Source: Microglena sp. YARC | Taxonomy: Eukaryota > Chlorophyta > Chlorophyceae > Chlamydomonadales > Chlamydomonadaceae | Assembly: GCA_022414725.1 (NCBI GenBank) | Contig: CM039464.1 | Coordinates: 45,294,312-45,358,311, forward strand | Reading direction: 5' to 3' | DNA: 64,000 nucleotides | Part shown: piece after piece, positions 2,419-64,000 of the stretch | Layout of the letters: every line of letters begins with the position of its first letter | Numbering within the stretch: position 1 is the stretch's first letter | Translations under genes and position numbers: made by a program | The notes under the pieces: generated by a model | Seen by the model: the letters and a program-made list of their open reading frames with translations, nothing else | Told to the model about the DNA's origin: nothing | The model's database searches: none

Positions 2419-5400
2419 TTAGTCCACAAAAGCCACGACAACCGTGACATCATCCATTTTGCCTCCTCCCTGCATCATGTTCAGGTGAATAACTCCAGGG
2501 ATTAATTTGATGATTAATTTGAGATGAATTTGAGATTAATTTGGAATTCATATGGGATAAATTCGAGGATAGTTTATGATTTATTTTGAAATGAAGATGC
2601 TCCTTGTGTGTCCCAAATATACCACTGACGTCCAGATTGAGAGATATTCAAAGAAAACCTCAAGTTTAGGGATCGGATTAGGGATGTCAATATCAAACTT
2701 TTCCCCAAGATCATCAGGCGATATTTAATTGCCTCCTCCCTGCATTGTATGAAGAAATGTTTGTGAATTGTTTTTGTTTTTGTTACTTGTGAATTGTTTT
2801 TTAGTTTTTGCAAATTGTTTATGTGAATTGTTTTCGTTTTTTGAATTGTCTTTTTGAATTGTTTTTTGAATTGTTTTTGTTTTCGTGAATTGTGAATTCC
2901 CTGCACTGCATTATATCTCACCTCACACTATACAGGCCAACAGGCCACAGCTACTTCCGCAGTGAGCCATTTTGTTACAATTAAATTTAATTTATGTACT
3001 AGAATGAATGTTTTGTTATAATTTAATTTTAATTGACCCCACGCTGCAGCACCTACCTTGGCAAAGTAGCGAGACCAGGCGAAGCCCTGCTCACAGGCTG
3101 ACACAGACCACGGCGTTTTCTGGAGTGGGGTCAGGGCATAGCTGTGGGCCTGTCGGGCCAAGAAGTCAGCTAGCTCCTGCGCCTCCTCTTGCAGATGGCT
3201 CATGTGCTCATCGTAGTCAGCAAAGTGATGATGGGCACCTGAGCGGATGACATGGGATGTTGTGAGGGGGGTGAATAGGGATGGTGTGAGGGGGGTGACA
3301 TGAGATGTTGCGAGGGAGTTGGAAGAAAGTGATACAGAGGTCCGAAGGTGATCAGGTGCCATTTCAAAAGATGTGATGGAGAGACGAGTTGAGGAGCGCG
3401 AGTAAAAAAAAAAACTACTACTGCTACTACTACTACTACTACTACAACAACGACAGCAACAACAACAAGATTACCACATGAGACGACTACAAAGACAGCA
3501 AGATAACCGCATTAGACGACGACAACGACAACAACAAATTACCGCATTAAACAACCACAACAGCAACAACAAGATTACCGCATTAGACGAGACACCAACA
3601 ACACCAACAAGATTACCACATGATTACCACAAGATGACAACACAACAACACCCACAAGATTACCACAAGATGACGACCACCACCACTACCACAACAACAG
3701 CAACTAATATAATATGGACCACAGGTATGCTACAACTGACACCTTTTCTTTATTTTTTCTTCTTCTTTTCTTTTTCTTCTCTATCTCCTTGACTGGCCCG
3801 TTGCGTGCACGGAATTCAGCAATCCTCTTTTTCTTCTTTTCTTTTGTTTCCTTCTTTTTCTTACCTGGCCCGTTGCGTGCACGGAATTCAGCGATCCTCT
3901 CCAGACTCTTTGTTGACGCGCTGTGACACAATTTGACGATTTCCTCGTCAAAAACGTTGTCATACAGCCCGTCAGTGGCCAAGATGATGACGTCGCCTGG
4001 TTGCACCTCAACCTGAGGGGGATCAGAGGGGCGTTGCCAGCAGGGTTATTTTAAGATGCTACTTATAGCACAAGTGCTAGATGATGTGCTAGTTCCCTGC
4101 TTATTCCTGCCAAATTAGGTACTGGTTTCCCCGTCAAAAACCTTGTCGTAAAGCCCGTCAGTGGCTAAGATGATGACGTCACCTGGTTGAACCTCAACCT
4201 GCATGGGATCAGAGGGGCACTGTCAGCAGGGTTCTTTTTAGGAGCTACTTATGGTGCAATGTTTTAGTGCTTAGGGCTACTTGTAGTGCTAAATAGCACT
4301 GCCAGCAGGGTTCTTTTAAAGGTGTGACTTGCAGCACAAGATTTATACGATGTACTGGTTCCCTGCTTATTCCTGCCAAATTATGTGTCAAAAACGTCAT
4401 CGTAAAGCCCATCAGTGGCTAAGATGATGACGTCACCTGGTTGCACCTCAACCTGCATGGGGTCAGAGGGGCATTGTCAGCAGGGTTCTTTTTAGGTGCT
4501 ACCTGTAGTGCTAAATTGTATTGTTAAGGGCTACTTGTAGTGCTAAATTGTAGTGCAGCAGGGCTATTTTAAGGTGCTTCTTGTAGTGCTAAATTATGAA
4601 CCGTCTGGTTGCACCTCAACCTGAGGGGATTCAGTGGGGCATTGTCAGCAGGGTTCTTTTTAGGTGCTACTTGAAGTGCACACAAAACACTTATGGCGAC
4701 AGTTTTTATATCTGAATGACACTGGAACTCAGGTCCTCTTGCCATGTAACCAAGTTCAAGTTCAAGCACACAAAACACTTATGGCGACAGTGTTTATATC
4801 CGAATGACACTGGAACTCAGGTCCTCTTGCCATGTAACCAAGTTCAAGTTCAAGCACACAAAACACTAAGGTGACAGTATTCGTACCTGAATAACGCTCC
4901 AACCCAGGTGGCCAGGTCCTCTTGCCATGTAACCAAGTAAAAGTAAAAGTAAAAGTATAAGTTAAAGTTCAAGTTCAAGTCAAAGAATATAACACTCACC
5001 ATGTTGACATCTGAATAACACTGGAACTCAGGTCCTCTTGCTATGTAACCCAGTTGAAGTCCAAGCACACAAAACACTTATGGTGACAGTATTCATATCT
5101 GAATAACGCTCTAACCCAGGTGGTCAGGTCCTCTTGCCATGTAACCAAGTAAAAGTAAAAGTAAAAGTAAAAGTAAAGTAAAAGTCTAAGAATATAACAC
5201 TCACCATGTTGACATCTGCACTATCTGCATCGTCGGGGCTGTCGATGATGGATGGGTGCGACAGCTGAAATGGCATGTTGAACATATGTTGTTGTGCCTG
5301 GTGAAAAAAGGGAGTGGGCAAAGGGAGAGGTCAGCCGCTTGCTTGTGATATATGTAGGTATATATATCACGCATATATATACTACTACCGTACTAGTATG

Positions 5401-5990
5401 TATATGTATATATGGAAGGCTCATTTATAATAGGTGTTGCTGTGCCTGGTTAGCAGAAGGGGAGTGTGACGGTTAGCGATCCTCGCCCCATGCAGCCTCG
5501 CTTTATATTCTTCTAGCTACAGTAACTGGAAGCATCCCCCAGCGGTCAAGTTAATTAGACACGTACTCGTTAAGACGCATTCATATGTCACATGGAGGGC
5601 CAAGCCCAATGCTACCTTGCTTGCTTGTGCTTTCTTTCTTTCTTGCTTGCTTGTGCTTGCCTGCTCTTGCTTGTGCTTGCGTGTGCTTTCTTTTTTGCTT
5701 GCTTGCGCTTGCTTGTGCTTTCTTTCTTGCTTGTGCGTTCTTGCTTATGCTTGCTTGCTTGCTTGCTTCTGCTTTCTTTCTTTCTATCCTTTTTCTTTTT
5801 TTCTTTCTTGTGCTTTCTTGTGCTTTCTTGCTTTCTTTATTTCTTTTGCTTGCTTGCTTGTGCTTTCTTTCTTCCTTCCTTTCTTTTTTTCTTTCTTTCT
5901 TGTGCTTGCTTGTGCTTTCTTTCTAACTTTATTGCTTTTGCTTGCTTGCGTCTGCTTTCTTTCTTTCTTGCTTGCTTGTGCTTGCTTGGG

Positions 5991-6025
<35 letters not shown>

Positions 6026-9000
6026 GTGCTTGCTTTCTTGTGCTTTCTTGCTCGTGCTTGCTTGCTTTCTTTCTTTCTTGTGCTTTCTTTCTTGCTTGCT
6101 TGTGCTTTCTTGCTTGCTTGCTTGCTTGTGCTTTCTTGCTTGTGCTTTCTTGCTCGTGCTTGCTTGCTTTCTTTCTTGCTTATGCTTTCTTTCTTGCTTG
6201 CTTGAGCTAGCTTGTGCTTTCTTTCTTGCTCGCTTGTGCTTTCTTTCTTTCTTGCTTGTGCTTTCTTGCTTGTGCTTTCTTTCTTGCTTGTGCTTTCTTG
6301 CTTGCTTGCTTGAGCTTGCTTGTGCTTCCTTTCTTGCTCGCTTGTGCTTTCTTTCTTTCTTGCTTGTGCTTTCTTGCTCGTGCTTTCTTTCTTGCTTGTG
6401 CTTTCTTGCTTGCTTGCTTGAGCTTGCTTGTGCTTCCTTTCTTGCTTGCTTGAGCTTGCTTGTGCTTCCTTTCTTTCTTGCTTGTGCTTTCTTTCTTTCT
6501 TGCTTGTGCTTTCTTGCTCGTGCTTTCTTTCTTGCTTGTGCTTTCTTGCTTGCTTGCTTGAGCTTGCTTGTGCTTCCTTTCTTGCTCGCTTGTGCTTTCT
6601 TTCTTTCTTGCTTGTGCTTTCTTGCTCGTGCTTCCTTCCTTGCTTGTGCTTTCTTGCTTGCTTGCTTGAGCTTGCTTGTGCTTCCTTTCTTGAGCTTGCT
6701 TGTGCTTCCTTTCTTGCTCGCTTGTGCTTTCTTTCTTTCTTGCTTGTGCTTTCTTGCTCGTGCTTTCTTTCTTGCTTGTACTTTCTTGCTTGCTTGCTTG
6801 AGCTTGCTTGTGCTTCCTTTCTTGCTCGCTTGTGCTTTCTTTCTTTCTTGCTTGTGCTTTCTTGCTCGTGCTTCCTTCCTTGCTTGTACTTTCTTTCTTT
6901 CATGCTTATGCTTGCCTTATTCACCATTGCACATTCAGAAAACTCATCAACACCACCTCCTCACCATCAACCTATACCCCCCCCTCTCCTCCTACACCCT
7001 CTTGAGCAACACATACCCAATCACCCATTGCTAACCCTCCCTCCTCACCACCAACCTTACGCTAACCTCAACCACCACCCTCCCACTTCCGATACATACG
7101 CAAGCAGACCCCTCCCCATCCACCCTCCAGCCACCTACCTACCCCTTCTCTCTCCCCTGTCCCCCCCCCCCCCCCCCCCCCCCCGCCCTCCCCCCAGTGC
7201 TCACTGCGCTTGTGAACACCAGCCTGCCATCCCGCACAATGCGAACCCTTTGAATCTCCAAGGTTGGCCACCTCCAGCCACCTAACTTTTTCAACCACCC
7301 TCTTTTTAAATACCGCTTTTCAACAACTGACGTTTTTTACTACCCCTTCCCCTCCACCCCAGTGTCCACCAAGCTTTGGAACACCAGCCCACCATCCCTC
7401 ACGATGGGACCCCCTCAATCTCCAAGGGTGGCCACCTCCAGCCACCTAACTCTTTTTAACTACCCTCTTTTCAACCACTAACTTGTTTTTAAACTACCCC
7501 TTTCCCCTCCCCCCCCTAGTGCTAACCGCGCTTGCGAGCAACAGCTTCCCACCCATCACAATAAACCCCCCTGAATCTCCCTCCCCTGCCCCCCTCGCCC
7601 CCTCCCCATCCCCCCCCCCCCCAGTGCTCACCGCGCTCGCGAACATCAGCTTTCCATCCCACACAATGTGAACCCCAGAATCCCCAACGTTGGCCCCCCC
7701 ACAGCCACCTACCTACCCCTTCTCTCTCCCCTCTCCCCCTCCCCGCCCAGTGCTCACCGCACTTGCGAAAACCAGCTCGCCATACCGCACACTGTCAACC
7801 CCTGAAGCTCCAAGTTTGAACACCTACCTACCCCTTATCCCCACCCCCCCAGTCCTCACCGCGCTTGCAAACATCAGCTTTCCATCCCGCACAATGCGAA
7901 CCCCTGAATCTCCAACGTTGGCTACTTCCAGCCAGCCGTGTGGCTTCATCGCGGCCAGGCAGATGGTGGCGCTCCCAGGAAGGTACGTGGCCATGTGCGC
8001 GTGCCGAATCACCTCCCTCGAGTCGATTCCTTCTTCCCCTGCGCTCTCCAGCTTCTCAGCAGTGAGTTTCATCAGTGTGCGGGAATACTCTGCAGGGTCG
8101 ATGCCTTCCTCTGCCCACCCGCTCACTCCGTCAGCGGCACCGATGGAGCCCAGCCCGTTTTGACAAATGCAGTAAGCGTCCTCGCCTCCCTTGTCCACCT
8201 GAGAAGCGGAAGAGGCAGTGCGTGGGTTTGTGCTTGTGTGTGAGCATGTGTGTGTGTGTTTGTGTATGTATGTATGTGTGTGTTTGTGTATGTGTGTTTG
8301 TGTATGTATGTGTGTACGTGTATGTTTGTGTATGTATGTGTGTTTGTGTATGTATGTGTGTTTGTGTGTGAGTATGTGTGTGTGTAGGAATGACAATAGT
8401 ATGTATGGGTGTTTGTGTGTGTAGGTGTGTGTGTGTGTGTGTGTGTGACAACAGTCGGCGGCACCGATGGAGCCCAGCCCGTTTTGGCAAATGCAGTAAG
8501 CGTCCTCGCCTCCCTTGCCCACCTGAGAAACGGAAGGGGCCGGGTGTGGGTTTGTGCTTGTGTGTGAGCATGTGTGTGTGTTTGTGTGTGTATGTAGGAG
8601 TGTGTATGTGTGTGCGTGTTTGTGCTTGTGTATGTGTATGTATGTGTGTTTGTGTGTGAGTATGTGTGTGTAGGAGTGACAATAGTATGTATAGTATGTA
8701 TGGGTGTTTGTGTGTTTGTGTGTGTAGGTGTGTGTGTGTGTGTGACAATAGTCTGCGCTACAGTCCATGTGTTTGTATGCATGTGATGCAGTACGCGTTC
8801 TCGCCTCCCTTGTCTACCTGAGAAGTGACAGGGAAATGTGGACGTGTGTGTGTGGTTGTATGTGTATGTATGTGTGTTTGTGCATGTGTGTGCATGTGTG
8901 TGCAAGTGTGTGTGTGAGAGTGTTTGTGTGAGTAGGTGTGTGTGTATGAGTGACAATATTATGTATAGTATGTATGGGTGTTAGTGTGTGTAGGTGTATG

Positions 9001-12835: not shown

Positions 12836-12849
12836 AGGGAGAGCTGCAT

Positions 12850-14947
12850 GGGAGCAAGGGAGGAGGGTGGAGGGTGGAGGATGGAGGAAGGAAGGTGCTA
12901 ACACAATACAGTTGCCATGAGGAAAGACGCATGGGATGCTGAAGTAAGGGAGCAGGTATAGACTTTGAAGGTATGACTCACATCTATGTTACTATGGGGA
13001 ATTCTGATGCTATGGGGGCTGGTGTCGGAGGGTGCTCCGGGAAGGTAGATGTTGGGCACTTACATGCACTTCAACCATGGGCTCAAGTATGCGAGGTGAT
13101 CATGCATGCAATAGGTGCAGGTTGGTATTAAGGTGGGTGGTGTAGGCTGATATGCAGGTGGATGGTGTAGCCTACATCGTGTAGGTGGGTGACTAGGAAG
13201 GTAGTTGGCCTGGAAGGTGTGTTTCGGAGTTTTGTTGCCGTAATGTTAAAGGTTTTACCTCGCAAGTTGAATGCTCTGCGTTGCGAAGGCGAAGATGAGG
13301 GGGAGCGGCCACTTGACGATTACCAGGGTTTTCTGGTGTGGCACGATACACCTGCCTATACTTCAGTCAGCCGGTAAGTGGACAATCCGATTGGCGGCTA
13401 AGCTGTTGATGAGAGCGCCACGATGGCTCTATTAGCGACAATCAGAAGCAGCCATGCCAACAGCATTTACTGGCCCAGGGAGAAGACACTACTATCCCGG
13501 GTAGTATTAACTTCAGAACGTCCAGATGCGCGAGTAAGGGGTATCTATACCAAGGGGGTGATACGAAGAGAAACCAGAAATGCAGAATGCGAGAAGACTT
13601 CGAAGTAACTGTCAAGACAACCTTGGAAATTTGCTTATGCCATATCGAAACGAGATCAAGGGGAGGAGACAGAAACGAGTGTACGTTTGCGGTACAATAT
13701 TGGATATCATTGGCCGGAATTGGGCGTGGATGGGGCCTGCTTGCGGGCCTGATTGCCGGCGAAGGGGATGAATTTGGAAATTAGCTTCAAATAATCAAAA
13801 GGAGTCAGAATGACGAGTCAAACAAAGCTGCCTATACGGCGCTCGACGGCGCCCCTCCTTCTATCTGTTCGCAAGCAAGGCTGTATCGACGTCGGGGCAT
13901 GTCAACCTGCTTCGACTCGCAGCATGAGTAGGCTGGAGTGCGAGTATTCATAAACCAGGAGGAAGCTCGGTTGTAACTTGCAATGCGATATGGCAAGTAC
14001 TAGAAATAGAAACAGAGAGGAATGGCACTTCAAATTTCGTGCGAGGTTGATTGAGCTCCGTAGCCATTCCGCAGCCGTACTGCAGGGTGGCACCAGGGCC
14101 GAGCTACGACCTTCGGACGCCTCCGACGAAACCCTGAGTCGAACGATGCCTATAGCTGCGATTACCAAGATGACTTAAATAGTTTTGCGAGCAAAACATA
14201 CGTGAGCTTGCAAGCCGTTGCAGGGGCTCAAAATAAGAAGAGCATGGTCGGAGTACAGGGTGGCATCCAGGTGGCATCCAGAGGGCATCCTCTGGCGTCC
14301 TCTGGTGGCATCTACCTACACCAAGCCGCGAGCCGTAGCTAGAGGACGCGGGCTGAGGCAAACGATTCCTGGAACTGCGCTGTTCAAGATTATCCAAGTT
14401 GATTTGCGAACAAACGAAAATGAGCTCGCGATGGCTCAGAATAAGAAGGGCCTGGCGGATCAACCTCCTGAAGTTCACGGCATTACGGCAATCACACAGC
14501 AGTTTCCCGAGCCAACTGTCTCGTAAGGGGGTAGCTCACTGGCTTCGGTCCGCTCCATTCCGTAGCCAATGCCGTTCCGATAGCCAAAACTCGGCCATTT
14601 ATTTTGCGGATCCCTCCCCTCTGAGCTGGGTGATCAGCTGGTACTGGGTTCGATTGTGAAACTTTTATAACCCCAGGGCAGGAGCACCTGATCACCGAAC
14701 GCGAAACATGTTTTTTGGCGGTGCCCCCACGACCGGGCCAAGCCGGGCCAAGCCAAATATTGGAGTCTCGATTTCTCTTCACTATAAGACAGATGTACAT
14801 CGCGGCGCCTACTAGTCTTTACATTCTTCCTGGTGGAATAAGTCGAATCCTCTCTGTAGTGCAATCTCGCGAGCTATGCAGTGTAGCCGCAAATAGGCTC
14901 GCTTGATTTGTCCAATTCCCCCCTGAAGTCAGAGCTAAAAAGTCAAA
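12850..14947. other. Gene-poor stretch between divergent genes
   Basis: This lies between the phosphatase 5' end and the transporter start codon, which point away from each other. It should hold both promoters. A polypyrimidine tract with an acceptor-like CCATGCAG lies at 12844-12900 on the minus strand. Part of dispersed family B (CTCACTGGCTTCGGTC) is at about 14500-14590. I see no convincing coding exon here. Confidence 0.5.
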
Positions 14948-15908
14948 ATGCTCCCTAAAGATGCTGGTAGCCGGACCAAGGTAATTCGCAGCTGCTGCGT
15001 CGATCAATCGATCCAGATCAGATCACCCCATGTTGAATGTTTGTATACTTCCGATCCCGCAGGTGGTCCGTGAGGTCATGAAGGCCTACAGCTACGTGCT
15101 CATGTGGATGAGCATCAGTATTTCAGTTATCATGTTTAACAAATGGGTCCTTGCATACTCCGGGTTCCCCTTCCCCATTGCTTTGACCTTATGGCACATG
15201 ACTTTTTGCTCGTCTGTTGGCTTCCTTGCCGTCCGAGTTTTCCGCGTCGTCAAGAGCCATAATATGACCCCCAAGGACTACTTCATGCGTGTTATGCCCA
15301 TCGGTGCGTGCCTACGGAGCTTGCATCGAGATCCATCTTCGACCTAGCAGTCCAGAAGATCATGCTCGAAGCTCACAACATTGCCAGCAGCATCAGTGCC
15401 AGCTATGCCTCGAAATCATTCAAATGTCTGGTAACCCTCAACTGCCTTGCTAACAGCAGGCTACTATTGCCTCCCAGTTCCTACCACCAGCTGACCACCC
15501 CTTATTTCCTCATTAGTATGGTCTCTTTTATTCGGGCTCCTTTGAGTGTACCTTGGCCCACCATGCTGCTTCAGTAACACCTGGATCGCAGCATTGTCTC
15601 CCCCCCCCCAAAATAGGGAAAGCGCTGCTCACCATTGACTTGCGTGCAAGGAGTTCAGTTGAAAAATCCAATACTGTCCTTCTGGACGACTTAGAACGTG
15701 GCCTGAATAAGAATGGCAGATTCAAGCTTGGGACTCAAACATCCCATGGCTGTCAGCTTTTTATCTAGGTCCATCTCACAAAGCAAATCCCACCCTACCC
15801 AAACCCGGTGGAGTCTAGATGCCCCAACAGATCAACTATGTGTTAGCCTGCTTGCTGATGGTACCTGCGGACATTTACATGTAGTTGGAGATGGGAGGGG
15901 GGGGCTGA

Positions 15909-15939
<31 letters not shown>

Positions 15940-18900
15940 TAGAAATACCCCTTTTTTTGAAAAACTTACATATGGATTCTGGGGTTTACAATGTGGCGCA
16001 CATAATGGCATCCTCGGAATTCCCACACAGGGCAGGGGCCATACCACCCATACTCACCCATTTACCCACCCGCTCACCTATGAATTCATTCAGCCTCCCA
16101 CCCCATTCACTTACCCACCCACCCAAGGGGTAGATACTTATTGCACTAGTTCCAAAGTGGTGCCAATAGACTGCCCTTGCCAAGGCCAAGTCATTGGTGG
16201 TCTCAGAATGTCATTTCGAGGTCTGAGTAAAAAGTTAGAAAAAACCTGAGGAGGGCGGACCCCCCCCCCCACCCCCACCCCCCCCTAAATGAGGTGCTCA
16301 GAATGACCTGGAAAATGTCTCATAATATCGCCATGATACGTGCCATAACAGCCCCATTATCAGAAAAAATGATCGTGAGAAGGAAAAATTTGGAGGCCTT
16401 GACACCTTCTGTTGGAGACGTCAATAACCATCCCCTCACCCCTCCCTCTCTCCCCCACCCCCACCCCTCACCACCCCCCCCCCCTCAACGTAGGGTTCCT
16501 TTACGCGGGTAGTTTGTGGCTCTCCAATTCCTCCTACCTCTACCTCTCTGTGTCCTTCATTCAAATGACCAAGTCCCTCATGCCTGGCCTGGTGTACGCA
16601 TCAGGCGTCATGATTGGTACCGAGAAGTACTCCAGGGGGGTCACCCTGAATATGCTCTTGATCGCCTTCGGTGTGGTGGTGTGCGCTTATGGAGAGCTCA
16701 ACCTCGTTATTCAGGGCTTGGTTCAGCAGCTGGCAGCTCTTGTCTTTGAGGTGAGCAGGTATAGCACTGGACTTTTGGCATCATGCGGTGCTATCTTGGG
16801 CCCTCCCTACGTCGCCTTTGACTCAGTCAGGCTGCTTGCACATTAGAAGTCCAGGGGTGCACCAGGACAACGTTACCATCACCAGCATCACCAGCATCAC
16901 CCCCCCCCCCCCCCCCCCCCCTCCCCCACTCTCCTCTTACCCACTCCCCTGCTAGCATACCTTGTGGTGAGGAATATTTAGCCCCCACCTACCTAACCCC
17001 TAATACCACCTAGACCCTAATACCACCTAAAAAACCTTTTAATCGACACGTAAACCACTAAACCCTAAACCCTCTAGACCTATGTGGGGGCTAACTGCTC
17101 CCCACTAAGCCCGTGCCTGACTCCATCTTCCTACAGCAACTCACCTGCTCTCAAACCCTCTCCCTGCATTACCCTTCCTCCCCTAGTCTCACCCATGTTA
17201 GCCCCCATGTCTCATGAATATTTCTGCTTCCTTTGCATTGTTTCAGGCCATGCGTCTCACCATGGTTCAAGTGCTGATCAACAGCAAGGGCCTCAACATG
17301 AACCCCCTCCAGAGTCTGTACTATGTGTCCCCTGCGTGCCTCATCTGTCTACTGTTCCCCTTCCGTAAGTTCTCCCCAATATTTTTTTCCGAGCAACTCG
17401 TAGTTAATTGAGCATCTCGGTGCGACCCGAGTGCGATGGGCTGCCCGCCAAACCCAGCAGCGCGCGATGCGCGGAGCTCGGGGGGGTTGGGGGGGCATTT
17501 CTGGCTACTTAAGCCTGACCCATGCGTCGCCATGCAGCAACAGATTGTTGACGCCTTGCTCACAAAAATCAGTGGTCGTCCCTGGGTCGTGCCACCAATT
17601 CATGTACTTGGAACACCAAGGTTTGTTTTCACCTAACAGATTGGCACATTTGTCTTCCTCTTTTTTTCCTAGTGCACGATGTCCACAAGTCCCTCTTGAC
17701 TCCATCATGCGGCGGACACATTTGGAGTCAAGGAGGGCACCAGAAAACATGTAATCATCAGCAGCATCAACTTATTTTTGCCTATGGTTTGGAGCTGCCC
17801 CGTAGCTACTGAAATGATATCAGCTACCCAGAATTGTACTTGAACTTGGTTGTGTAGCTTCAGCTAGCTATATGGCCGCTCGCCGTCTTCAGCAGTATTT
17901 ATTTTACCAGGAAAAATGTAAACGCGTTTAATTTCTTCTTTCATTTTTCCAGAATGTTTAGCGCTGATATCTATACTTGAATTATTTCCATTTATTCAAT
18001 GGCATTCCAGGCTGTGGCTATTGTAATGTACGCAATGTTGTCAAAAACGGGGATGGTCACTTTCCTTCCGAGAATGGATTATGCTTGCCTTGCTCTCACT
18101 ACTCGTCTGCATGATTGGCAGAGCCTCTACTTCTGGGAGGCGACGCCTCAGAAAGACCCCGCTGTCCTTCTGTGCGACCGACTGGTCGAAAAAACGAAGC
18201 CTAACACGTCAGCCAACTGTCTCATAACTAACTGGTTTCAGCCACCTGTTGTCCTTTGCCGACACTCTCCGTCAAATTTCTGCGTCGCTTGCAACGCTGC
18301 ATATGACTTGTTCCTCTGTGGAAATTTGATTGTTACTCGATTTTTCGGCTAGCTCTGGGCTGCTGACCGTCTTCCGATGCTAAGTCCCCCCCGTGCGATA
18401 CCCACGGATACCAGGGAGACAACTAAGCGGATTAGACAATTGAAATACCTGTTCCACTATTTATTTTTCAGGCTACGCGTAGCAGCTTTCACCCAGCTTG
18501 ATTAGCCAGCAACTGAGTCAAGCCCAAAGATTACAGCTGCATTTGAGTGCTTGTCATGCCAGCTTTTAGATGCACTAACTAGCTTCAGGTTGTGCCTAAG
18601 GGCGGGTAAAGGAGCCGCCTAGAAGCTGCTACGCGTAGCCCAACAATAAATAGTGACTTCTCCTCTGTGCAGTGTCAGTAGACTTCCCTAACCCCTGACC
18701 TCCTTCGCTTGAGACATACAGTGCCTCCTGTGCTTTCGAAATAGAACAAAAAGTCATTTAAATATTAGAAAAAGTCGTTATAATGATAAGAAATGATACG
18801 TAATTAAAGGACCAGTGGAGTTCTATAAGTATATTATCTTCCCTCTATCCGACCCCCCTGTGCATTTTTCCACGCAGTGGCGGTCGACTTCCCTGCCATG

Positions 18901-20114
18901 CGCGTCCGCACTGACTGGGTGTTCAACCCATCCGTCATGCTTGCCAATGCTCTGACAGCCTTCATCCTCAACTTGGTGAGTCCAAACTCTACATATTTTG
19001 GGGTCTCCGGCACATTTACTCTCCTTGTCGTGCTCAAGGTTGTGCTAAGCGCTTTTGTTTCGAGGTTGGGCTGGTCCCTACACAGGTTGGTCACTGCAAG
19101 TTTGGGGGGTCTCCGGCACCCTTTTATTTGGCTGATCAGGGTGCATTCTGGGTGGGGAGGGTGCTGTGTGGTTGCAGACAAGGGCGCTTAAGACCTCCAA
19201 AACTTGCAGTGGGACAGTGCTGTGCCCTACATCTGCACCCAGTTTGTGATGAGGTTGGTTGGCTTGGATAGATCGAGGCAAGTGAGTTTGGTTGGTGTAA
19301 TCGTCACTGTCATAAAAGTCTGGAAGGTGGCGTGATATGCAAGGCTGTGTATGGGATATTTGTTGAGGGCAGTGTTGGGGTGGATTTTTGAGCCATGGGT
19401 TGGTGGCAGTCTGATATTTAAATTAGAAATATTAAGGCCGGCTGCTTCATATAATACAACTGGTTGATGGTCAATGTTGAGTCGCTGACTCTACTCTTCA
19501 TTCTTGCTGACCCAGCTCCTCTCATTGATTGTTTTCAGTTCAGAAAGTTTTTTTATAGATTATGGGTGAAGTCCTCTTTCAAGGAACAGCGTGTATATAG
19601 CTTTTTATGGTCATAGATTTGGGGGGGTTATAGAGGCAATTTGGGCCAGAATGGGTTCAAAAGTAGCAAAAGCTGTATAGAGAAGAAATAAAATCCATGT
19701 CCTCTACATTGAACCTGAACTTGGTGTCATAGCTTCAGCTGGAAATTTGGCTGCTTGCTGTCTTCGGCAGGAAAAACAAATTTGCCAGAAAAACACAAGC
19801 CAATCATTTATCTGCTCTATGCTTTGTGCTTAATCTATCCTCCTATCCCCCCCAATGTCAGGCTGTATTCCTCCTCATCGGCAAAACCTCTGCTCTGACC
19901 ATGAACATAGCCGGTGTGATCAAGGACTGGATGCTCATCTTCTTCTCCTTCTACATCTTCAAGGCCCCCGTCACAGTCATCAACTTGGCAGGTTACCTTT
20001 TCTGCTGCTCTGGGGTAAGTTTGATTGATCACATAATCTTGCACTTGTGTTGTCAAGTACAATATCGTTTATATATCTATACATATGCCACCTGAATGGC
20101 TTTTTTTCCTCGGT

Positions 20115-46725: not shown

Positions 46726-46789
46726 ATCACCCCTGAAAAACTAAGGTACGTAATGTAGCACTAAGACAGTTTAGCACATCAATACTCCG

Positions 46790-47640: not shown

Positions 47641-47647
47641 CACACCC

Positions 47648-50600
47648 TCAGCATCCGAAAAATGATAGGAATCCACTTTTTCGCCTCTGCTGGTCTGGGT
47701 CAATTACTTGAGGTGCTTGCTTGCCGAATCCGCTGCATAGGGAACCGCCCGAGGCCACCTCAGGCACGGAAGGCAGGCTCCTTGTCTGTGCAACAATCGC
47801 CGAGTCTCTCTTGTTTGGTATTTGAACATGGGAGGGAAGTGCTAGCATGCCGCGCAAGTGCCCCTCTTCTTCGTGGAGGGAGTCTTCAACGACAGCGGTC
47901 CGGGGCACGATGTGCTTGCGGTGCTTGTCCTCGTTCTTCATCCACATGTGCGACTGCCCACCCACCAGGGCGCCGTAGATGGTGCGGTGCAGGTGATCCA
48001 CAGTGGAGGAGATACCTGGCAGGTGGTTGGGTGAGGTGGTTAGTTGAGGTGGGGAGGGGGTTGGTTGAGGTGGGGAGGTGGTTGGGTGAGGTGGTTGGGT
48101 GAGGTGGGGAGGGGGTTAGTTGAGGTGGGGAGGTGGTTGGGTGAGGTGGTTGGGTGAGGTGGGGAGGTAGATGGGTGAGGTTGGGAGGTGGTTAGGTGAG
48201 GTGATTGGGTGAGGTGTTTGTCCTGGGCACAATGTGCTTGCGGTGCTTGTCCTTGTTCTTCATCCGCATGTGCGACTGCCCGACCACCAGGGCACCGTAG
48301 ATGGTGCGGTGCAGGAGGTCCACAGTGGAGGAGATACCTGGCAGGTGGTTGGGTGAGGTGGTTGGGTGAGGTGGGGAGGTGGGTGGTTGAGGTGGCTGAT
48401 GTGGTTGAGGTGGGGAGGTGGGTGGGTGAGGTGAGGCGAGGTGGAAAGGTGGGTGAGGTGGGGAGATGGGTGGGAGGGGTGGGGTCGTGGGGTGGGTGAC
48501 GTGGGTGGGTGAGGTGAGGTGGGGAGGTGAGTGAGGTAGGTGGGTGAGGTGGGGAGATGGGTGGGAGGGGTGGGGTCGTGGGTGGGTGAGGTGGGGAGAT
48601 GGGTGGGTGAGGTGGGGAGGTGGTTGGGTGAGGGGGGGAGGAGGGTGGGTGAGTTGGGTGGGTGGTGTATGTGGGCCTACAGGACAGGAAACCAGCCACC
48701 TGTCTAAATTTAATTAGGTGATTCGATTCAATTAAAATGCAATACAAAAAACCTACCGTCCTCCTTCTGCATCAAATCCGACATGCGCTGAGCAGTGGTC
48801 AGCCTGGACGGAAAGATGACCTTCTTCAATACCATTAAATACAACAAGATAATTAGATACCATAGCATTAAATTAGGTGATTCAATTCAATTTACATTAA
48901 ATTAAACCTACCGTCCACCTTCTGCATAGAATCCGACATGCGCAGAGCAGGGGTCAGCCTGGACGGAAAGATGACCTTCTTCAATACTATTAAATACAAT
49001 TAGGTGATTCAATACCATTAAATTAAATGAAGTGATCCAATACCATTAAATTTAATAAAATTAAACCTACCATCCTCCTTCTGCATCAAATCCGACATGC
49101 GCAGGGCAGCATTCAGCCTGGACGGGAGGATGAGCTCCTTGAGGGCGTCGATGATCTTGGCGGTGCTGAGGTCATCAATCCCACAGGGTACGGGACCCAC
49201 ACCGGCCTTGTGGCAGGCGGCACCCCAGAAGGGCTGGTCACCGAAGAAGTAGACGATGAAGGTGGGCTTGCCTGCGGGGAGTGGTGATGGTGTGGGGTTG
49301 GGGGGGAGCGGTGGGGTGGGGTGGGGAGTGGTGGGGTGGGGAGTGGTGGGGTGGGGAGTGGTGATGGTGTGGGTTGGGGGGGAGCGGTGGGATGGGGTGG
49401 GGAGTGGTGGGGTGGGGAGTGGCGGGTGGGGAGTGGTGGGGTGGGGAGTGGTGGGTGGGGAGTGGTGATGGTGTGGGGTTGGGGGGAGCGGTGGGGTGGG
49501 GTGGGGAGTGGTGGGGTGGGGAGTGGTGGGGTGGGATGGGGTTGGGGGGGAGCGGTGGGAAGGGGTGGGGAGTGGTGGGGTGGGGAGTGGTGATGGTGTG
49601 GGGTTGGGGGGGAGCGGTGGGGTGGGGTGGGGAGTGGTGGGGTGGGGAGTGGTGGGGTGGGATGGGGTTGGGGGGGAGCGGTGGGAAGGGGTGGGGAGTG
49701 GTGGGGTGGGGAGTGGTGATGGTGTGGGGTTAGGGGGGAGCGGTGGGATGGGGTGGGAGTGGTGGGGTGGGGAGTGGCGGGGTGGGGAGTGGTGGGGTGG
49801 GGAGTGGTGGGGTGGGGAGTGGTGATGGTGTGGGGTTGGGGGGGAGCAGTGGGGTGGGGTGGGGAGTGTGGGGTGGGGAGTGGCGGAGTGGGGAGTGGTG
49901 GGGTGGGGAGTGGTGATGGTGTGTGGTTGGGGGGGAGCGGTGGGATGGGGTGGGGAGTGGTGGGGTGGGGAGTGGTGATGGTGTGGGGTCGGGGGGGAGC
50001 GGTGAGGTGGGTAGTGGTGGGGTGGGGAGTGTTGATGGTGTGGGGTTGGGGGGAGCGGTGGGGTGGGGTGGGAGTGGTGGAGTGGGGAGTGGTGGGGTGG
50101 GGAGTGGTGATGGTGTGGGGTTGGGGGGGAGCGGTGAGGTGGGTAGTGGTGGGGTGGGAGTTGTTGATGGTGTGGGGTTGGGGGGATTGTTGATGGGATG
50201 GGGTTGGTGGGGTTGGTAATGGGGTGGGGTTGGTGGGGTGGTGGTGGTGGAGGGGGTGGTGGATTGCTGATGGGGTGGGGAGTGGTGGTGGTGGGGGGGG
50301 GGTTGGTGGGATTGGTGATGGAGTGCCCCCCGGGGCCCCATGCTTCACGCTCCACCCTATCCCAGTCCATGCGCTCCCAGTCCAACCCAACCCTTCTGAA
50401 TGATTGCCCTAAGCCCGTTATTGTCTAGTTATATTCGCAGAGCTAGGTTACGACCCACCTGCCAAGAGACCGGTGGCAGTGGTGCCAGCACCCCCATGGT
50501 GCACCACAGCAGAGCACTTGGTAAAAAGCCAGTCGTGTGCACAATTGCCTTCCAAGATGAACACTTCCTTGGGCGTGGATGTCACACCCGCTCCCAGTCC

Positions 50601-53600
50601 ACCCCAGCCTATCTGGATGATCGCCCCCCAGGCCGGTCATTATGGGTATGCTTTCATGGCGTTATACATTGAGTGAGGGGAAACAAAGTAAGCATCGGTG
50701 TTGGCAATCAGTGTACAAGACCCCCCAATACATTCAAACTACAATCCATACCACAATTAGTTGTATTGGTCACAACTAGGTTAAGACCCACCTGCCAAGA
50801 GACCGGTGGCAGTGGTGCCAGCACCTCCATGGTGCACCACAGCAGAGCACTTGGTAAAGAGCCAGTCATGCGCACAATTGCCTTCCAAGATGAACACTTC
50901 CTTGGGCGTGGATGTCACACCCGCTCCCAGTCCACCCCAGCCCTTCTGAATGATCGCCCTCAGGCCGGTCAACTTCAGGGCTTGTAAGAACTGCTGTGTC
51001 ATTTTCTTTGGGTCGTTCACCACTAGCGAGCCGAAGCCGATGTACACCGGGGGGGGGCCTGAAGCCAGGAAGTCGGCCAGGTCCTGGGGAGGCTTGTAAT
51101 TGGTCAGCTTGTTGACCTCAAGGTTGATGAAGCCCACCACCTCGCAGAAGGGGGGCCAGTCCTTGGGCCGGTCAACCAGGGAAGGGCTCCAGATGTAGGT
51201 GAAGGGCACCTAGGTGTGGGTGTGGGTGTGGATGTGTGGGTGTGGATATGGGTGTGGGCGTGTTGGTGTATGGGAGACTTGTTGACCTCCAAATTGATAG
51301 AGCCCACCACCTCACAGAAGGGGGGGCAGTCCTTGGGCCAGTCCACATGGGAGAGAGGTTTTACAACCCCTCAAAGCCCACCCACCCACCCACCCACCCC
51401 ATATTGACTTTGGACCCACCCTTGAAGCTCATCTTGGAATGATGGAGTGCAAGAGATGTATGATCCTTGTGTACTGCTATCTTGACTAGCTATGTATTGC
51501 TATCTTGACTTTGTACCACCCCTCGTAACTCATCCCCCCTCGAAGCACACCCACCCACCAACACTTTCTTGACTTTGTACCACTCCATCCAAAACCTTCA
51601 ACCCTAACAACCCTAAACCCTAGACTTTGTACCCACCCCACCTTCGAAGCTTACCTTGGAATGATAGAGAGCATGAGAGGTATGCTCCTTGTTCCATGTC
51701 TTGACTACCTATGTGTTGCCATGACAGCGACCGCGAACAGTAAAGTGCACCTGTAGAAATTCGAAACCAGCACCTTCTACAGTCCAGCGAAATGACAAAC
51801 CAGTGAAACATACCTTGGAATGATATAGAGCATGACAGGTATGATTATGTGTACTGCTATCTTGACTATCTATGTATTGCTACCTTGACGTTGTACCACC
51901 CCTTGAACCATACCTTGGAGTGACAGAGAGCATGACAGGTATGATCATGTGTACTGCTATCTTGACTATCTATGTATTGCTACCTTGACGTTGTACCACC
52001 CCTTGAACCATACCTTGGAGTGATAGAGAGCATGGCAGGTATGTTCATGTGTAATGCTATCTTGCATAGCTATGTATTGCTATCTTGACGTTGTACCACC
52101 CCTCGTAGCTCATGCCCCCTCGAAGCCCACCCACCCATCAAATTTTGTCTTTGTACCCACCCTTGAAGCCCACCCACCCACCCCATCTTGACTTTGTACC
52201 CACCCCACCCTCGAAGCTCACCTTGGAATGATAGACAGCATGCAAGGTATGCTCCTTGTTCCATGTCTTGAATAGCTATGTATTGCCATCTTGACTTTGC
52301 ACCCACCCTCGAAGCCTTCCCACCCACCCCATATTGACTTTGTACCCACCCCACCCTCGAAGCTTACCTTTGATAGACAGCATGCAAGGTATGCTCCTTG
52401 TTCCATGTCTTGAAGAGCTATGTATTATTATCTTGACTAGCTATGTATTGCTATATTGATTTTGTACCACCCCTCGTAGCTCATCCCCCCTCTAAGTCCA
52501 CCCATCCACCCCATCTTGACTTTGTACCCACCCCACCCTCGAAGCTTACCTTGGAATGATAGAGAGCATGAGAGGTATGCCTCCTTGTGTACTGCTATCC
52601 TTAACCCTAACCCCTAACAACCCTAAACCCTTGACTTAGTATCCTAACAACCCTCGAAGCTCACCTTGGAATGATAGAGAGCATGTGAGGTGTGTTCCTT
52701 GTTCCATGTCTTGACTACCTATGCATTATTAATTTATTATCTTGACTAGCTATGTATTGCTATCTTGACCACCCCTCGCAGATCATCCCCCCTCGAAGCA
52801 CACCCATCCACCCCATCATGACTTTGTACCCTACCCCCCCTCGAAGCTCACCTTGGAGTGATAGAGGGCATGGGAGGTGTGTTCCTTGTTCCATGTCTTG
52901 ACTAGCTATGTATTATTATCTTGACTCTGTACCACCCCTCGTAGCTCATCCCCCCTCGAATCCCACCCACCCACCCCATCTTGACTTTGTACCCACCCCC
53001 ACCCATGAATCTCACCTTGGAATGATAGAGCGCATGGGAGGTATGCTCCTTGTTCCAAGTCTTGACTACCTTTGTATTGCTATTTTGACTAGCTATGTAT
53101 TGCTATCTTGACGTTTTTACCCACCCCACCCTCGAAGCTCACCTTGGAATGATAGAGTGCATGGGAGGTATGCTCCTTGTTCCATGTCTTGATGCCCAAC
53201 ACTCGCTGCCTGAAGTCCTTCACCATGCCTGACATCCCAAGCCAAGCCAAGTCGTCCATGGCGAAGTACGACAACCAGTTCATGACCTCCCTGGCCATGC
53301 TGTTGGTCTCTCCAATCACTGTCTTGATACGAGCAAAGGGGCTGGGGAAGGCCTGGTGTGACAAATGGGTTGAGCGTGAGATGGGGTTGGAAGTAGGGTG
53401 TGGAATGGGGATGGTAGAAGGGTGTGGGATGGGGGTGGTAGTTGGGTGTGGGATGGGGATGGTAGTAGGGTGTGACAAATGGGTTGGGTGTGGGATGGGG
53501 ATGGTAGTTGGGTACGGGATGGGGATGGTAGAAGGGTGTGGGATGGGGGTGGTAGTAGGGTGTGGGATGGGGATGGTAGTTGGGTGTGGGATGGGGATGG

Positions 53601-56600
53601 TAGTAGGATGTGGAATGGTAAGGCCTGATGAGACGAGTGGGGCTGGTAAATACAGTTGGCAATAGACTTTCAGTGGAGTAAGTTATCACTTAAATATTAT
53701 ACATTAATGTATGCCATGCTGATGGGCTCTCCAATCCAATAAACTGTCTTTGCACCCCACCAACCACCAACCACCAAAACAGCATACTGAATATGCCTTT
53801 GCACCCCACCAACCACCAACCACCAATAGATCATGCTGAATACGCATGTGCACCTCATCAACCACCAATCACCAATACAGCATACTTTATACACCTTTGC
53901 ATCCCACCAACCACCAATCACCAATACAGCATGCGGAATACTCTACATACATCAATGTATACATTAATTTGTATCAATTACCTTGGTCGGAGTCCATGGC
54001 ATGGTGAAGATGATGTGAAGAGGGCAGTTCAGCTTCTCTGCACAGTGGGAGTGTCCATACGCTGGTGGGTTGGCGATGATGGCGTCGGCGATAAATAGCT
54101 TATGGGTGTTTTCTGGGTCAGCTTCCACACAAGCCCCCCAGGAAGAGTACAGGATCTCCCGCACCTGATGATGGTTTGGTGGTTGGTGGTTGGTGGGTGG
54201 TGTTATTTGGGTCAGCCTACACACAAGCCCCCCAGAAAGAGTCCAGGATCTTCCGCACCTGATGATGGGAACAACAAACACTTCCAACCATTAACCTGAT
54301 GTAACTGCTTCAAGGCATCTCCTATGTTCAAACCAGGCATGACACAACACACATACGCATGCACACACAAACAGAATCTCCCTCACCTGATACCGATGCG
54401 TCAAGGCACCTCTCATGTCCAAACCAAGTATTTTACATCATGTTCACACACACAATCATGCATGCACACACAAACACACATGCATGCACACACACACACA
54501 CATGCATGCACACACAAACACACATGCATGCACGCACACACACACATGCATGCACACACAAACACACACGCATACACACACAAGCACACATGCATGCACA
54601 CACAAACACACATGCATGCACACACAAACACACATGCAGGCACACACAAACACACACGCATGCACACACAAACACACATGCATGCACACACAAACACACA
54701 TGCATGCACACACAAACACACATGCATGCACACACAAACACACATGCATGCAGACACAAACACACATGCATGCACACACAAACACACATGCATGCACACA
54801 CAAACACACATGCAGGCACGCACAAACACACATGCATGCACACACAAACACACATGCATGCAGACACAAACACACATGCATGCACACACACACACATGCA
54901 TGCACACACAAACACACATGCATGCACACACAAACACACATGCATGCACACACAAACACACATGCATGCACACACAAACACACATGCATGCACACACAAA
55001 CAGAATCTCTCTCATCTGATGTTGATGCTTCTAGGCATCTCCTATGTTCAAACCAGGCATGACACAACACACACACAAATGCACACACAAACAATGTACT
55101 CACTCTCACCTGGTGTCCCTGATTTAAGGCATCTTCCATGTCCAAACTAGGCGTGTTACATGCATGCACACACAAACAAACAGAAGCTCTCTCACCTGAT
55201 CTCGCTGCTTCAAAGCGTCTTTGATGTCCAAACCAGGCATGATACCACACACACACACATGCAAACACACATGCATGCACACATGTGCAAACAGAAGCTC
55301 TCTCCCCTGATGCCGATACTTGAAGGCATCTCCCATGTCCAAACCAGGCATGTTACGTCATGCTCACACACACAAACACACATGCACACACACACACAAA
55401 CAGGATCTCCCGCACCTGATCTCGCTGCTTCAAAGCGTCTTTGATGTCCAGACCAGGCATGATACCGCGATGCTTGACTACATACTCGGACAACACCTGG
55501 GGACAGGTGGTGGTGGTGGTGGTGGTGTGTCAGACGTTTCGGTGGTGGTAGTGGTGGTGGAGGTGGTGGTGGTGTGTCAGATTGTTTGGTGGTGGTGGTG
55601 ATGGTGGTGGTGGTGTGTCAGACGTTTCGGTGGTGGTAGTGGTGGTGGAGGTGGTGGTGGTGTGTCAGATTGTTTGGTGGTGGTGGTGGTGGTGGTGGTG
55701 GTGTGTCAGACGTTTCGGTGGTGGTAGTGGTTGTGGAGGTGGTGGTGGTGTGTCAGATTGTTTGGTGGTGGTGGTGGTGGTGGTGGTGGTGGTGGTGGTG
55801 GTGATGGTGGTGGTGGTGGTGGTGTGTCAGACGTTTCGGTGGTGGTAGTGGTGGTGGAGGTGGTGGTGGTGTGTCAGATTGTTTGGTGGTGGTGGTGGTG
55901 GTGGTGGTGGTGGTATCAGATGATTTGGTGGTGGTGGTGGTGGCAGCTGTTTTGCGTGCGTGCTTTTGTAGTTATGTTTTTGAATTTGTGTTTGTGTGTA
56001 TGTTAGATGTCAGGTTGCAAGCAAGACAAGGCAGTGCAACAAGCAGAATGAACAAAGCAGGCCAACATACATAAAATCAAACATGAATTCGAACATGAAG
56101 TCAAAAATGAATTTTAACATGAAATTAAACATGAAGTCAAACATGACTTTAAACATGAATTTTAACACGAAGTCAAAATGAATTTAAACATGAATTTAAA
56201 CATGAAGTCAAACATATATCCAAACATGAATTTAAACATGAAGTTTCTCTCATCTTGGGGTCTCCTCCCATGGGATAGAATTCAAACATTGAGTCAAAGA
56301 TGAATCCAGACATGAATTTAAACACGACTTTGAACATGAATTCAAACATGGAGTTCATCTTACCTTGGGGTCTCCTCCCATGGGATAGAACTCCAGGCCA
56401 AAGCCCTCCACAAAAGGGCGATAGATCTTGTGAGAGGCAATGCGCACACGGTGTCCAAACTCCTTCAGCTTAAGGCCAATGCCAATGAAGGGCTGCACGT
56501 CACCCCGGGTGCCGGTGATAAGCATGACCAGGTTGAGGGGCTTGATCTTGCCCTCGATAAATCCAACCTTGATTGAGCGGTCCAATTCCTACCAAGGGTG

Positions 56601-59600
56601 AGGGAGGGTGAGGGGGGTTGAGGTGGGTTGGGGAGAAGAGTGAAGGTGGCCAAAATAGGTGGGAGCGGGTGGGGTGGTAGGGGGAAGTGATGAGCATGAC
56701 AAGGTCGAGGGGCTTGATCTTGTCCTCGATGAATCCAACTTTAATTGAGCGGTCCAATTCCTGCCAAGGGAGAGGGAGGTGGGTGGGTGGGAGGAGGGGT
56801 GAGGGGGGAGGGGGAGGAGAGTGAAGGTGGCAAAATTAGGGGTGGGAGGGTGGGTGGGAGGGGGCAGTGATAAGCATGACAAGGTTGAGGGGCTTGATCT
56901 TGCCCTCGATGAATCCAACCTTGATTGAGCGTCCAATTCCTGCCAAGGGGAAGGGAGGTGGGTGGGTGGGAGGAGGGGGTGAGGTGGGGTGGGGAAGAGA
57001 GTGAGGGGGCCAAACTAGGGGTGGGAGGGTGGGTGGGAGGGGGTAGGGTGAAAGGTGGCAGTGATAAGCATGACAAAGTTGAGGGGCTTGATCTTGCCCT
57101 CGATGCATCCTACCTTGATTGAGCGGTCCAATTCCTGCCAAGGGTGAGGGAGGGTGAGGGGGGTTGAGGTGGGTTGGGGAGAAGAGTGAAGGTGGCTAAA
57201 ATAGGGGTGGGAGGGGTGGGGTGGTAGGGGGAAGTGATGAGCATGACAAGGTTGAGGGGCTTGATCTTGCCCTCGATGAATCCAACCTTGATTGAGCGGT
57301 CCAATTCCTGCCAAGGGGGAGGAAGGTGGGTGGGTGGGAGGAGGGGTGAGGGGGGAGGGGGAGGAGAGTGAAGGTGGCCAAACTAGGGGTGGGAGGGTGG
57401 GTGGGATGGGGCAGTGATAAGCATGACAAGGTTGAGGGGCTTGATCTTGCCCTCGATGCATCCTACCTTGATTGAGCGGTCCAATTCCTGCCTAGGGGGA
57501 GGGAGGGCGAGGGGGGGTGAGGAGAGTGAAGGCGTCCAAACTCCTTGAGCTTGAGGCCAATGTAGGGTTGTAGGGATGAGCATGACGAGGTTGAGGGGCT
57601 TGGTCTTTCATGGTAACCTCCTTCAAGTCAATCCCTAACCCTACGCTCACCCCCTGACCCTCATCCCCTCACTCTAAACCCACCCCTTGAGTCAAATCCT
57701 AACCCTCACCACCTAACCCCAGGACCTCACCCCCTCACTCTAAACCCAGCTCTTGAGTCAATCCAGCCTCAGATTGCATGGTACCCTGCTTCGAGACACC
57801 CCTAACCCTACCCTCACCCCCTAACCATAAACTCCTCACTCTAAACCCAGCTCTTGAGTCAATTCAGCCTCAGATTTCATGGTACCCTGCTTCAAGACAC
57901 CCCTAACCCTGTATGTATGTTACAGTCCAGGGGTAGGCCAAATAGGCTAAAGGACTTGCCCAACCGTATAGGAAGGACTTAAAACGAAGAAGCACTGATG
58001 AACTGAACCCCAAGCAATTGTTTAATCGACAAGGGCCCTGAGTTCGTGCTACAGTGATAATTTAATTATACAAACTAACGATACCCTCACCCCCTAACCA
58101 TACCCTCACCCCCTAACCATACCCTCACCCCCTAACCATACCCTCACCCCCTAACCATACCCTCACCCCCTCACTCTAAACCCACCTCTTGAGTCAATTC
58201 AGCCTCAGATTTCATGGTACTCTGTTTTGAGTCACCCTGGGCCTTCTTGACAGAGCCCTGCAGCGAAGCCTTCAAAATCTCTTGAGCAGCTTGTTCGGCA
58301 CTGCCGGCGACAATGGTGTTGGGCTCTGGCGTGCCTGGATTGGTCACGGAGGCGATTACCGCTGCACTGGTCCTGTATGCATGTATGTGTGTATGTAAGT
58401 ATGTATGTATGCATGTATGTATGTATGTATGTATGTATGTATGTGTGTATGTATGTATGTATGCATGTACTAGTACATTGCCCGTGTGGCCGGTGGCCAA
58501 CCCCCACCCACCCAGGTCCATTGGCCTGCTCAGGGTAACAGAAGGGGTCAGGCCCTTGTATGCCCCCCCCCCCCCCCCCCCCTCCCCTCCCCCCCCCCCA
58601 CACACACACCACACCACACACACATACCCTCTCTCCCTTCACATGCACCCAGTCAAAGTATTTCCCCATTTGCAACTGAAATATATAAAGCATGCCCCCT
58701 TCTCTTCCGTACTCTATCCCCCCTCCCCCCCCCCCCCCCAAACCCCAAACCCCAAACCCCAGGACCTGCACGTTCCCCTGCCCTCACCTAAATATACCTG
58801 CCCCCCATCCCCAGTGCCGCACCCTCTCTCTCTCCCCTCTGAACCCCCCAGCCCCACACACCTCCCAGCCATCTCCCCGTGCGACCCTCCCTACCCCCCC
58901 CCCCCCCCCCGCACCCACATACACCTCTCTCCCTTCCTCTTCCCCTTCACTTAAGCTGTGGCCCCCCACCCCTAGCACACATACAATTCCAACCCACCCC
59001 TAGCCAGATCAACAGTATGCCTTACTTTTTCTGACCTCTCCCTGCCCCTATCCTCACCCCATCCACACACACTCCCCCCCTACCCCCCCACCGTCCCTTT
59101 CCCGAACGACCGAATCGCACGCACACTTACCTCCCTTATCTTTACCTCGGACACTGCACTCCAGCTGTGGGCTGTGATCGTGCGAAAATTGGAGGCTGTG
59201 TATTGAACCGACAAAAAAATGCAAACGCTCTGATTCCGATCACGCCAAGAGCACCGGTTCTGCACGATTGCAAAGCTACAAACGTGCAGCTTCTTCTGGT
59301 GCATTGGCCCAGTTTGGAAAACTTTGCCTTACATCTGGTCAACCTTGCTAAAGCTAAATTCGCAGGGCCTCGTTAACAGCCCCGCGCCGTAGTGGGTCAG
59401 CAGCACGGGCAAGAAGTTGACGCTTGTTAATCTCGTTCATTTCCTCAACGCTCAGGCGAGCTCGCCTTGCACGACGGCTTGCAGTGTCAGCGGCTCTTCT
59501 GGCATACAATATCGTTGTTTGGTGCTGCATGAAGGTCTCGAGAAGCAATAGGTTGTACACTTACAGTTCGAGCGCCATATAAGCGTCTGTTCAGGACGAA

Positions 59601-62660: not shown

Positions 62661-64000
62661 AGAACATCCTTCACATCGTTACCAACTGATCCCTACAACC
62701 TACATTCCTACACCCTACCACCTTCCCCTAACCCCATGAACACGACACTAACGTGATACCAATATAAAAAGTAGCACTCACAACAGATGTGATGCCCAAT
62801 CCTCTCCATGACCAAGGACTGCATCCGTAGCACTGGTGAGAACATCCTTCACAGCGTTACCAACTGGTCCCTACAACCTACATTCCTACACTCTACCACC
62901 TTCCCCCAACCCCATGAACACAATACTAACGTGATACCAATATAAAAAGTAGCACTCACAACAGACGTGATGCCCTATCCTCTCCAGAATGGAACACCAC
63001 ATCTGTAGGGCTGGTAAAGACATCCTCCACAGCGTTGCCAACTAGTGCCTACACCCTACACCCTACACCCTTACAATCTACACCCTACCCCAACCCCATG
63101 AACACAATACTAACGTGATACTAGTCTAAAAAGTAGCACTCACAGGAGACGGGCGTGATGCCCTATCCTCTCCAGAATGAAAGTCCGCATCTGTAGCACT
63201 AGTCTAGGCATCCTTCACACCGTTACCAACGGCACCTACACCCTACACCCCTACACTCCACCACCTAACCTAACCCCATGAACACAATAATCATGTGATA
63301 CCCGTGATACTCATATAAATAGTAGCACTCGCAACAGACCGACGTGATGCCCTATCCTCTCCATGACCTAGGACTGCATCAGTTGCACTGGTAAGAACCT
63401 CCTTCACACCGTTACCAACTGGTGCCTACACCCTACACCTCTACCCTCTACCCTAACCCTATGAACACAATAATAACGTGACACTAATATAAATAGTAGC
63501 ACTCACTGCAGACGGACATGATGAACTATCCTCTCCATGACCTAGGACTGCATCAGTAGCACTGGTCAAGGCATCCTTCACACCGTTACCAACTGGTGCC
63601 TACACCCTACACCTCTACCCTCTACCCTAACCCTATGAACACAATAATAACGTGACACTAATATAAATAGTAGCACTCACTGCAGACGGACATGATGAAC
63701 TATCATCTCCATGACCTAGGACTGCATCAGTAGCACTGGTCAAGGCATCCTTCACACCGTTACTAACGGCACCTACACCCTTACACTCTACACCATTACA
63801 CTCTAAACCCTACCCCAACCCCACGAATACAACACTATCGTGATACTAGTATAAAAAGTAGCACTCACAGGAGACGGGCGTGATGATGCCCTATCCTCTC
63901 TAGAATGGAAGACTGCATCGGTAGCACTGATAAGGACATCAGTCACACCGCTACCAACTGGTGCTGGTGCTAACATAACATGAGCACAAAAATAACATGA
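62580..64000 (-). repeat. ~180-bp tandem array carrying a UGT80 N-terminal exon edge and donor
   Basis: Eight units are marked by AAAAAGTAGCACTCACAACA at about 62587, 62772, 62949, 63133, 63320, 63495, 63670 and 63856. On the minus strand each holds an exon-like stretch (DVLTSATDAVLGHGEDRASR) ending in a GTGAGTG donor. The word ACTGGTGAGAACATCCTTCA is also shared. By the orientation rule the parent exon would lie at or beyond the right end of the window; the copy at 62600 may itself be the exon used. Confidence 0.88.

Follow-up and report, generated by a model that had tools for sequence, protein, structure and literature searches.

Intron lengthening is usually ascribed to transposons, and intronic minisatellites form regular tandem arrays inside introns. 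For the potato RdRp gene, a new intron is reported to have been made by a tandem duplication crossing an intron-exon boundary (PMC4974935). In about half of the introns analyzed here, which come from a chlamydomonadalean ice alga, an exon edge and its splice site are copied on the same strand and in tandem register into the adjacent intron, as in introns grown by tandem duplication. This is a genuine enlargement of introns by the gene's own edges, built from a known type of mutation operating at an unusual, genome-wide scale.

The window, by which we mean the whole 64-kb stretch of DNA analyzed (C3:45294312-45358311; GC content 50.5%), lies within a 568 Mb genome. Splice sites were placed in three of its genes, encoding the sterol glucosyltransferase UGT80 (8 exons), a TPT-like transporter (6 exons), and a PP2C-type phosphatase (3 of its exons). 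Each exon edge was represented by a probe combining at most 90 bp of exon with 20 bp of intron and searched for within 2.5 kb on either side, for 29 edges in the window (UGT80, 14; PP2C, 5; TPT, 10) and 71 edges overall. Same-side copies were detected for 15 of the 29 window edges with 1 to 11 copies each, in agreement with the initial annotation, which had counted at least 15 edges with 1 to about 11 copies. Among the genes it had named, the phosphatase (4 of 5 edges) and UGT80 (11 of 14) carry such copies, whereas the TPT-like gene, the sole identifiable transporter, has none at its 10 edges. A further piece that had been called CGR1-like (61.2-62.3 kb) has an upstream array visible by eye; it gave no Pfam match and was omitted from the counts. 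The 64-kb window contains no Rfam match at gathering scores. The features are listed in Table 1.

Table 1. Gene features of the window and the exon-edge copies located in or beside them
Feature	Position	Strand	Remarks
UGT80 (sterol glucosyltransferase)	window	-	8 exons, 7 introns
UGT80 intron 1 + flanking exons (58372-58186, 56588-56364)	56364..58372	-	period near 180 bp
UGT80 intron 1 copies	donor-edge ~57730-57903; acceptor-edge ~56686-57607	-	
UGT80 intron 2	55497..56363	-	single donor-edge copy ~56234-56284
UGT80 intron 3	54165..55415	-	donor-edge copies ~54294-55357; acceptor-edge copy ~54198-54268
UGT80 intron 4	53353..53981	-	single short acceptor-side copy ~53712-53736, not junction-crossing
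UGT80 intron 5	51210..53142	-	11 copies of upstream exon 3' edge, then 1 copy of next exon 5' edge
UGT80 intron 6	49272..50791	-	single long donor-edge copy ~50443-50549
UGT80 intron 7	48016..49070	-	2 donor-edge copies ~48749-48982; 1 acceptor-edge copy ~48247-48357
PP2C-type phosphatase exon (PF00481 weak, E = 0.03)	7860..8198	-	acceptor-edge copies upstream ~8453-9243; donor-edge copies downstream ~7190-7814
PP2C-type phosphatase exon (PF00481, 24.6 bits, above cut-off)	3865..4012	-	acceptor-edge copies ~4125-4640; donor-edge copy ~3793-3829, not junction-crossing
TPT-like transporter (PF03151, 24.6 bits, under cut-off of 30)	14948..20014	+	6 exons placed; internal negative case

Loci beyond the window were obtained by a Pfam search, in which protein-kinase and ABC-transporter exons were chosen blind to repeats, and by retrieval of 20 further kinase pieces and 3 mitochondrial-carrier pieces. 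When 79 coding cores from three Pfam families were compared with their own surroundings, 25 had copies, and the HSPs fell on the same side in 93 cases and on the other side in 2, so the same-side excess is not confined to the window. Both other-side HSPs came from one L082 'exon' with an in-frame TAG that matches sequence 57-199 bp upstream and, judging from its sequence, could be a degenerate copy, lying downstream, of the exon before it. In this self-comparison the architecture recurred at loci on several large contigs, and many other loci were without copies. The kinase loci L060-L079 were hand-chosen from 125 matches for being short exons that cover part of the domain, at a stage when their own repeats had not yet been seen; this choice is biased toward intron-rich genes. 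L053, L055, L057, and L059, together with the other 1-255 PF00069 matches, form a dispersed family of kinase-domain open frames of ~1 kb each on many contigs, possibly mobile or retrocopied, and the flanks of the four retrieved are free of local repeats.

For intron-level counts we used 33 introns: 7 from UGT80, 5 from the TPT-like gene, and 21 from kinase genes at other places in the 568 Mb genome, the latter being those within the domain whose next exon was located in the retrieved piece, with splice sites positioned using a custom-built kinase profile. Exon-derived copies were present in 18 of the 33 introns (11 of the 21 kinase introns) and, by the edge-probe search, absent from 15, including all five TPT-like introns. 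Kinase copies were found at 16 of 42 edges, comprising 10 of the 21 donor edges and 6 of the 21 acceptor edges, and over the entire edge set 98 same-side copies were spread over 31 of 71 edges. The initial annotation had proposed a comparison with shuffled intron assignments; at the same threshold that gave the 18 own-intron matches, exon edges matched the introns of other genes in just 5 of 988 mismatched pairs. With respect to base content, local direct repeats make up 69% of UGT80 intron sequence, repeat units containing an exon edge 53%, and strictly exon-derived sequence 21%; the corresponding values are 51%, 25%, and 11% for the 21 kinase introns and 0%, 0%, and 0% for the five TPT introns. 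The pattern is therefore real and recurrent at loci across the genome, and it is carried by roughly half of the examined introns but not by most intron DNA, so that the earlier statement that most introns are made this way was too strong.

The position of the copies relative to their parents was uniform. All 82 junction-crossing copies in the 71-edge set lay on the expected side, that is, donor edges recur downstream and acceptor edges upstream. Only 5 other-side copies were found against the 98 same-side ones, and none crosses a junction; four belong to one 81-bp exon whose probe extends to its other edge, and one to L070. In introns with both kinds, donor-edge copies all preceded acceptor-edge copies in 10 of 10 cases; this order test, like the neutrality test below, covered UGT80, 4 of the 5 PP2C edges, and 10 kinase introns hand-listed for already showing copies. 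Such complete polarity could be the signature of a mechanism specific to exon-intron junctions, for example RNA-templated or splice-site-targeted copying, and an exon edge is indeed included in much of the repeat content (25 of 51 percentage points in the kinases, 53 of 69 in UGT80). However, random tandem duplication combined with a rule that the exon stay intact reproduced this polarity in simulation, with exon content in a comparable range, and nearly pure intronic arrays exist in L066 (64% repeats, 0% with an exon edge), L073 (56%, 0%), and L050 (82%, 2%). We consider a junction-specific mechanism improbable. The strict polarity noted initially thus stands in full for junction-crossing copies but falls as a separate signature: within the model, it is the expected outcome of tandem duplication and selection for an intact exon, and requires no special mechanism, because simulated random duplication with intact exons yields the same.

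The simulation used duplication units of 60-200 or 100-300 bp and included neither point mutation nor a detection limit, so that starting size is only loosely bounded by it. Introns starting at 200-400 bp showed segregation of donor and acceptor copies in 82-100% of cases, an exon content of 15-32%, and copies at 56-78% of edges. With 800 bp starts, segregation was 100%, exon content 4-5%, and copies occurred at 27-31% of edges; with 80 bp starts, just 8-65% of cases segregated and exon content rose to 56-62%. The values for the kinases (exon content 11%; copies at 10 donor and 6 acceptor edges out of 21 each) fall between the 400 and 800 bp simulations and the UGT80 value (21%) between 200 and 400 bp. 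Since 80 bp starts segregate so poorly, growth from very short introns fits the observed 10/10 order poorly, and we infer that the introns would have started at a few hundred bases.

Differences between parents and copies were then counted by codon position, restricted to exons with an unambiguous frame (up to 99 copies). The first, second, and third positions differed by 8.1%, 7.7%, and 14.6%, respectively, and the intron-derived parts of copies differed from the parent by 13.2%; copies sharing one parent are non-independent comparisons. The resulting ratio of third to first and second positions, 1.86:1, is close to the 2:1 expected if the parent alone is constrained, as for inner copies evolving without coding constraint. 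The donor GT was retained in 47 of 60 copies, about as predicted from 11-13% divergence, and the acceptor AG in 25 of 27, above the neutral-decay expectation. Since the codon ratio is near 2:1, the copies resemble neutrally decaying remnants and not functional exons or artefacts. The retention of splice dinucleotides would also be anticipated if the inner copies served to regulate splicing, as alternative or mutually exclusive ends of exons. Against that reading, the codon pattern fits an unconstrained copy and has no strong third-position excess, donor retention is approximately neutral, and the inner copies are unused by the EukProt UGT80 protein, to which our UGT80 protein is 100% identical over 83% of the query (73% identical to the Chlamydomonas euryale protein). 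The EukProt protein tracks the outermost copies from exon 3 onward, where its model begins. Nor do the copies resemble tandem alternative exons, with no whole-core HSP among the matches listed and the near-neutral codon pattern; regulated alternative ends are very unlikely.

The arrays could also be assembly artefacts, as the assembly alone was examined. This is hardly credible, given that copies mostly diverge from their parents by ~5-25%, that misassembly would not produce the codon-position asymmetry, and that the same architecture occurs at loci on several large contigs. Assembly artefact, alternative exons, and junction-specific copying were accordingly all rejected on divergence and codon asymmetry, on the neutral codon pattern, and on the simulation, respectively.

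The copies are unevenly distributed. They cluster by gene, being present in 7 of 7 UGT80 introns and 0 of 5 TPT introns (p = 0.0003 over 33 introns), and by region: in 1-kb bins of the window, with simple repeats filtered, local direct repeats account for 0-5% at 11-22 kb and 0-31% at 23-33 kb, whereas around PP2C and UGT80 most bins reach 40-100%. The duplication rate therefore cannot be uniform; the background for duplication density is the window profile and the locus flanks only. Copy-bearing introns were longer (median 1252 vs 886 bp, p = 0.045), and copies occurred in only one of seven introns shorter than 500 bp, a length difference that fits growth but is weak. UGT80 intron 4 is 39% local repeat, none of which lies in units containing an exon edge.

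Several other features of the window were recorded. The repeat-poor block at 11000-33000 sits between two repeat-rich blocks. Pieces of PF11999 ice-binding genes are clustered on the minus strand at 34408-38895; their repeats are offset by ~1.3-1.6 kb and ~2.8-3.0 kb and are 71-84% identical, like a tandem gene family. A CTTG-type array of 1.3 kb occupies 5616-6913. Two introns of the TPT-like gene share a 63-bp match (78%; 17833-17895 vs 19708-19770) that resembles dispersed-element fragments. By eye, the minus strand at 62500-63950 holds several copies of a ~150-190 bp unit ending in donor-like GTGAGTGCTAC, and the parent exon of this array is perhaps located at the edge of the window or outside it.

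Edge copies could also date from the birth of the introns, if these arose when exonic segments were duplicated in tandem or breaks were repaired, a reading compatible with later growth. Strong terminal direct repeats, going far past the splice consensus, were found in 4 of 32 introns, three of which have them at the end and one at the start; mismatched pairs predict ~0.03. L054, with its poor splice model, was excluded from this test and retained in the edge-copy and intron-content counts. The initial 16 nt of UGT80 intron 3 equal the initial 16 nt of the next exon, a repeat of the intron-birth type, and intron ends match the upstream exon end in L068, L050, and the 82-bp intron of L076 (scores 12, 9, and 7). 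Among 992 mismatched pairs, a score of 7 was reached by one for ends and none for starts (permutation p = 3e-5 and 0.023, respectively). In addition, the paralogue L067 reads through intronless at the L068 intron site, the only difference in intron position among the loci compared. These repeats fit the gain of introns by either tandem duplication or the repair of breaks (PMC4974935, PMC3443670), and on sequence grounds some introns may have been so born. On the other hand, 28 of the 32 introns have no terminal repeat, and in Drosophila conserved introns are reported to be flanked by direct repeats of at least 5 bp with about the frequency seen for gained introns (PMC3443670). Birth as the source of the edge copies is, on balance, rather unlikely. 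The wider proposal, that introns in this nuclear genome are both born and enlarged chiefly through local tandem duplication, is less likely than not, and we offer it tentatively; if true, many introns begin as duplicated exon edges or soon take them up, their repeats are largely the gene's own coding sequence and flanks, and each gene holds a readable record of intron growth.

Based on these results, we think it likely that the introns enlarge by repeated local tandem duplication, with the outermost working copy kept and the inner copies decaying passively. The copies themselves, the side on which they lie, their neutral decay, and the sufficiency of random duplication in simulation are shown by the analysis, and junction-spanning duplication with inner-copy decay, as first suggested for the window, is upheld by the same-side copies and the neutral codon pattern recurring across the genome. 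Segments of ~60-300 bp would be duplicated repeatedly and blindly with regard to exon-intron borders. Where a duplication spans a junction, the outermost copy would continue to serve as exon edge, since the protein would otherwise be changed. The inner copy would become intron together with the donor or acceptor it carries, and would decay as a passive remnant with no function of its own. At the molecular level we infer a duplication-making process in which slippage or unequal exchange would amplify the units into regular arrays; the observed spacing is regular, for example in the L060 donor copies at 107, 278, 459, 637, and 808.

With growth traces from their own exon edges in about half of the examined introns, the process becomes directly studiable. 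A constrained parent beside several unconstrained copies in one gene constitutes a built-in neutral clock, and the system is a test bed for how the spliceosome disregards near-identical decoy sites, as well as a source of candidates for recent intron birth. Among the literature matches listed, from a collection covering a minority of subscription papers, titles and abstract openings held no account of such a genome-wide pattern.

Compared with known systems, these introns share with intronic minisatellites the regular arrays, with ~90-190 bp per unit in several cases, but their unit often includes a coding-exon edge and a splice site. Introner-type transposable introns would be similar intron sequences dispersed at unrelated loci; the cross-locus comparison made here covers exon edges against other genes' introns (the 5 of 988 pairs above). 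As in the break-repair intron gain discussed in PMC3443670, the intron ends of L050, L068, and L076 repeat 7-12 nt of the upstream exon end; most introns here have no such repeats. The potato RdRp case (PMC4974935) is similar in that a tandem duplication takes in exonic sequence together with splice sites; that duplication made one new intron in one gene, whereas here existing introns have been enlarged repeatedly in many genes, and a terminal repeat suggestive of birth is present in only 4 of 32 introns.
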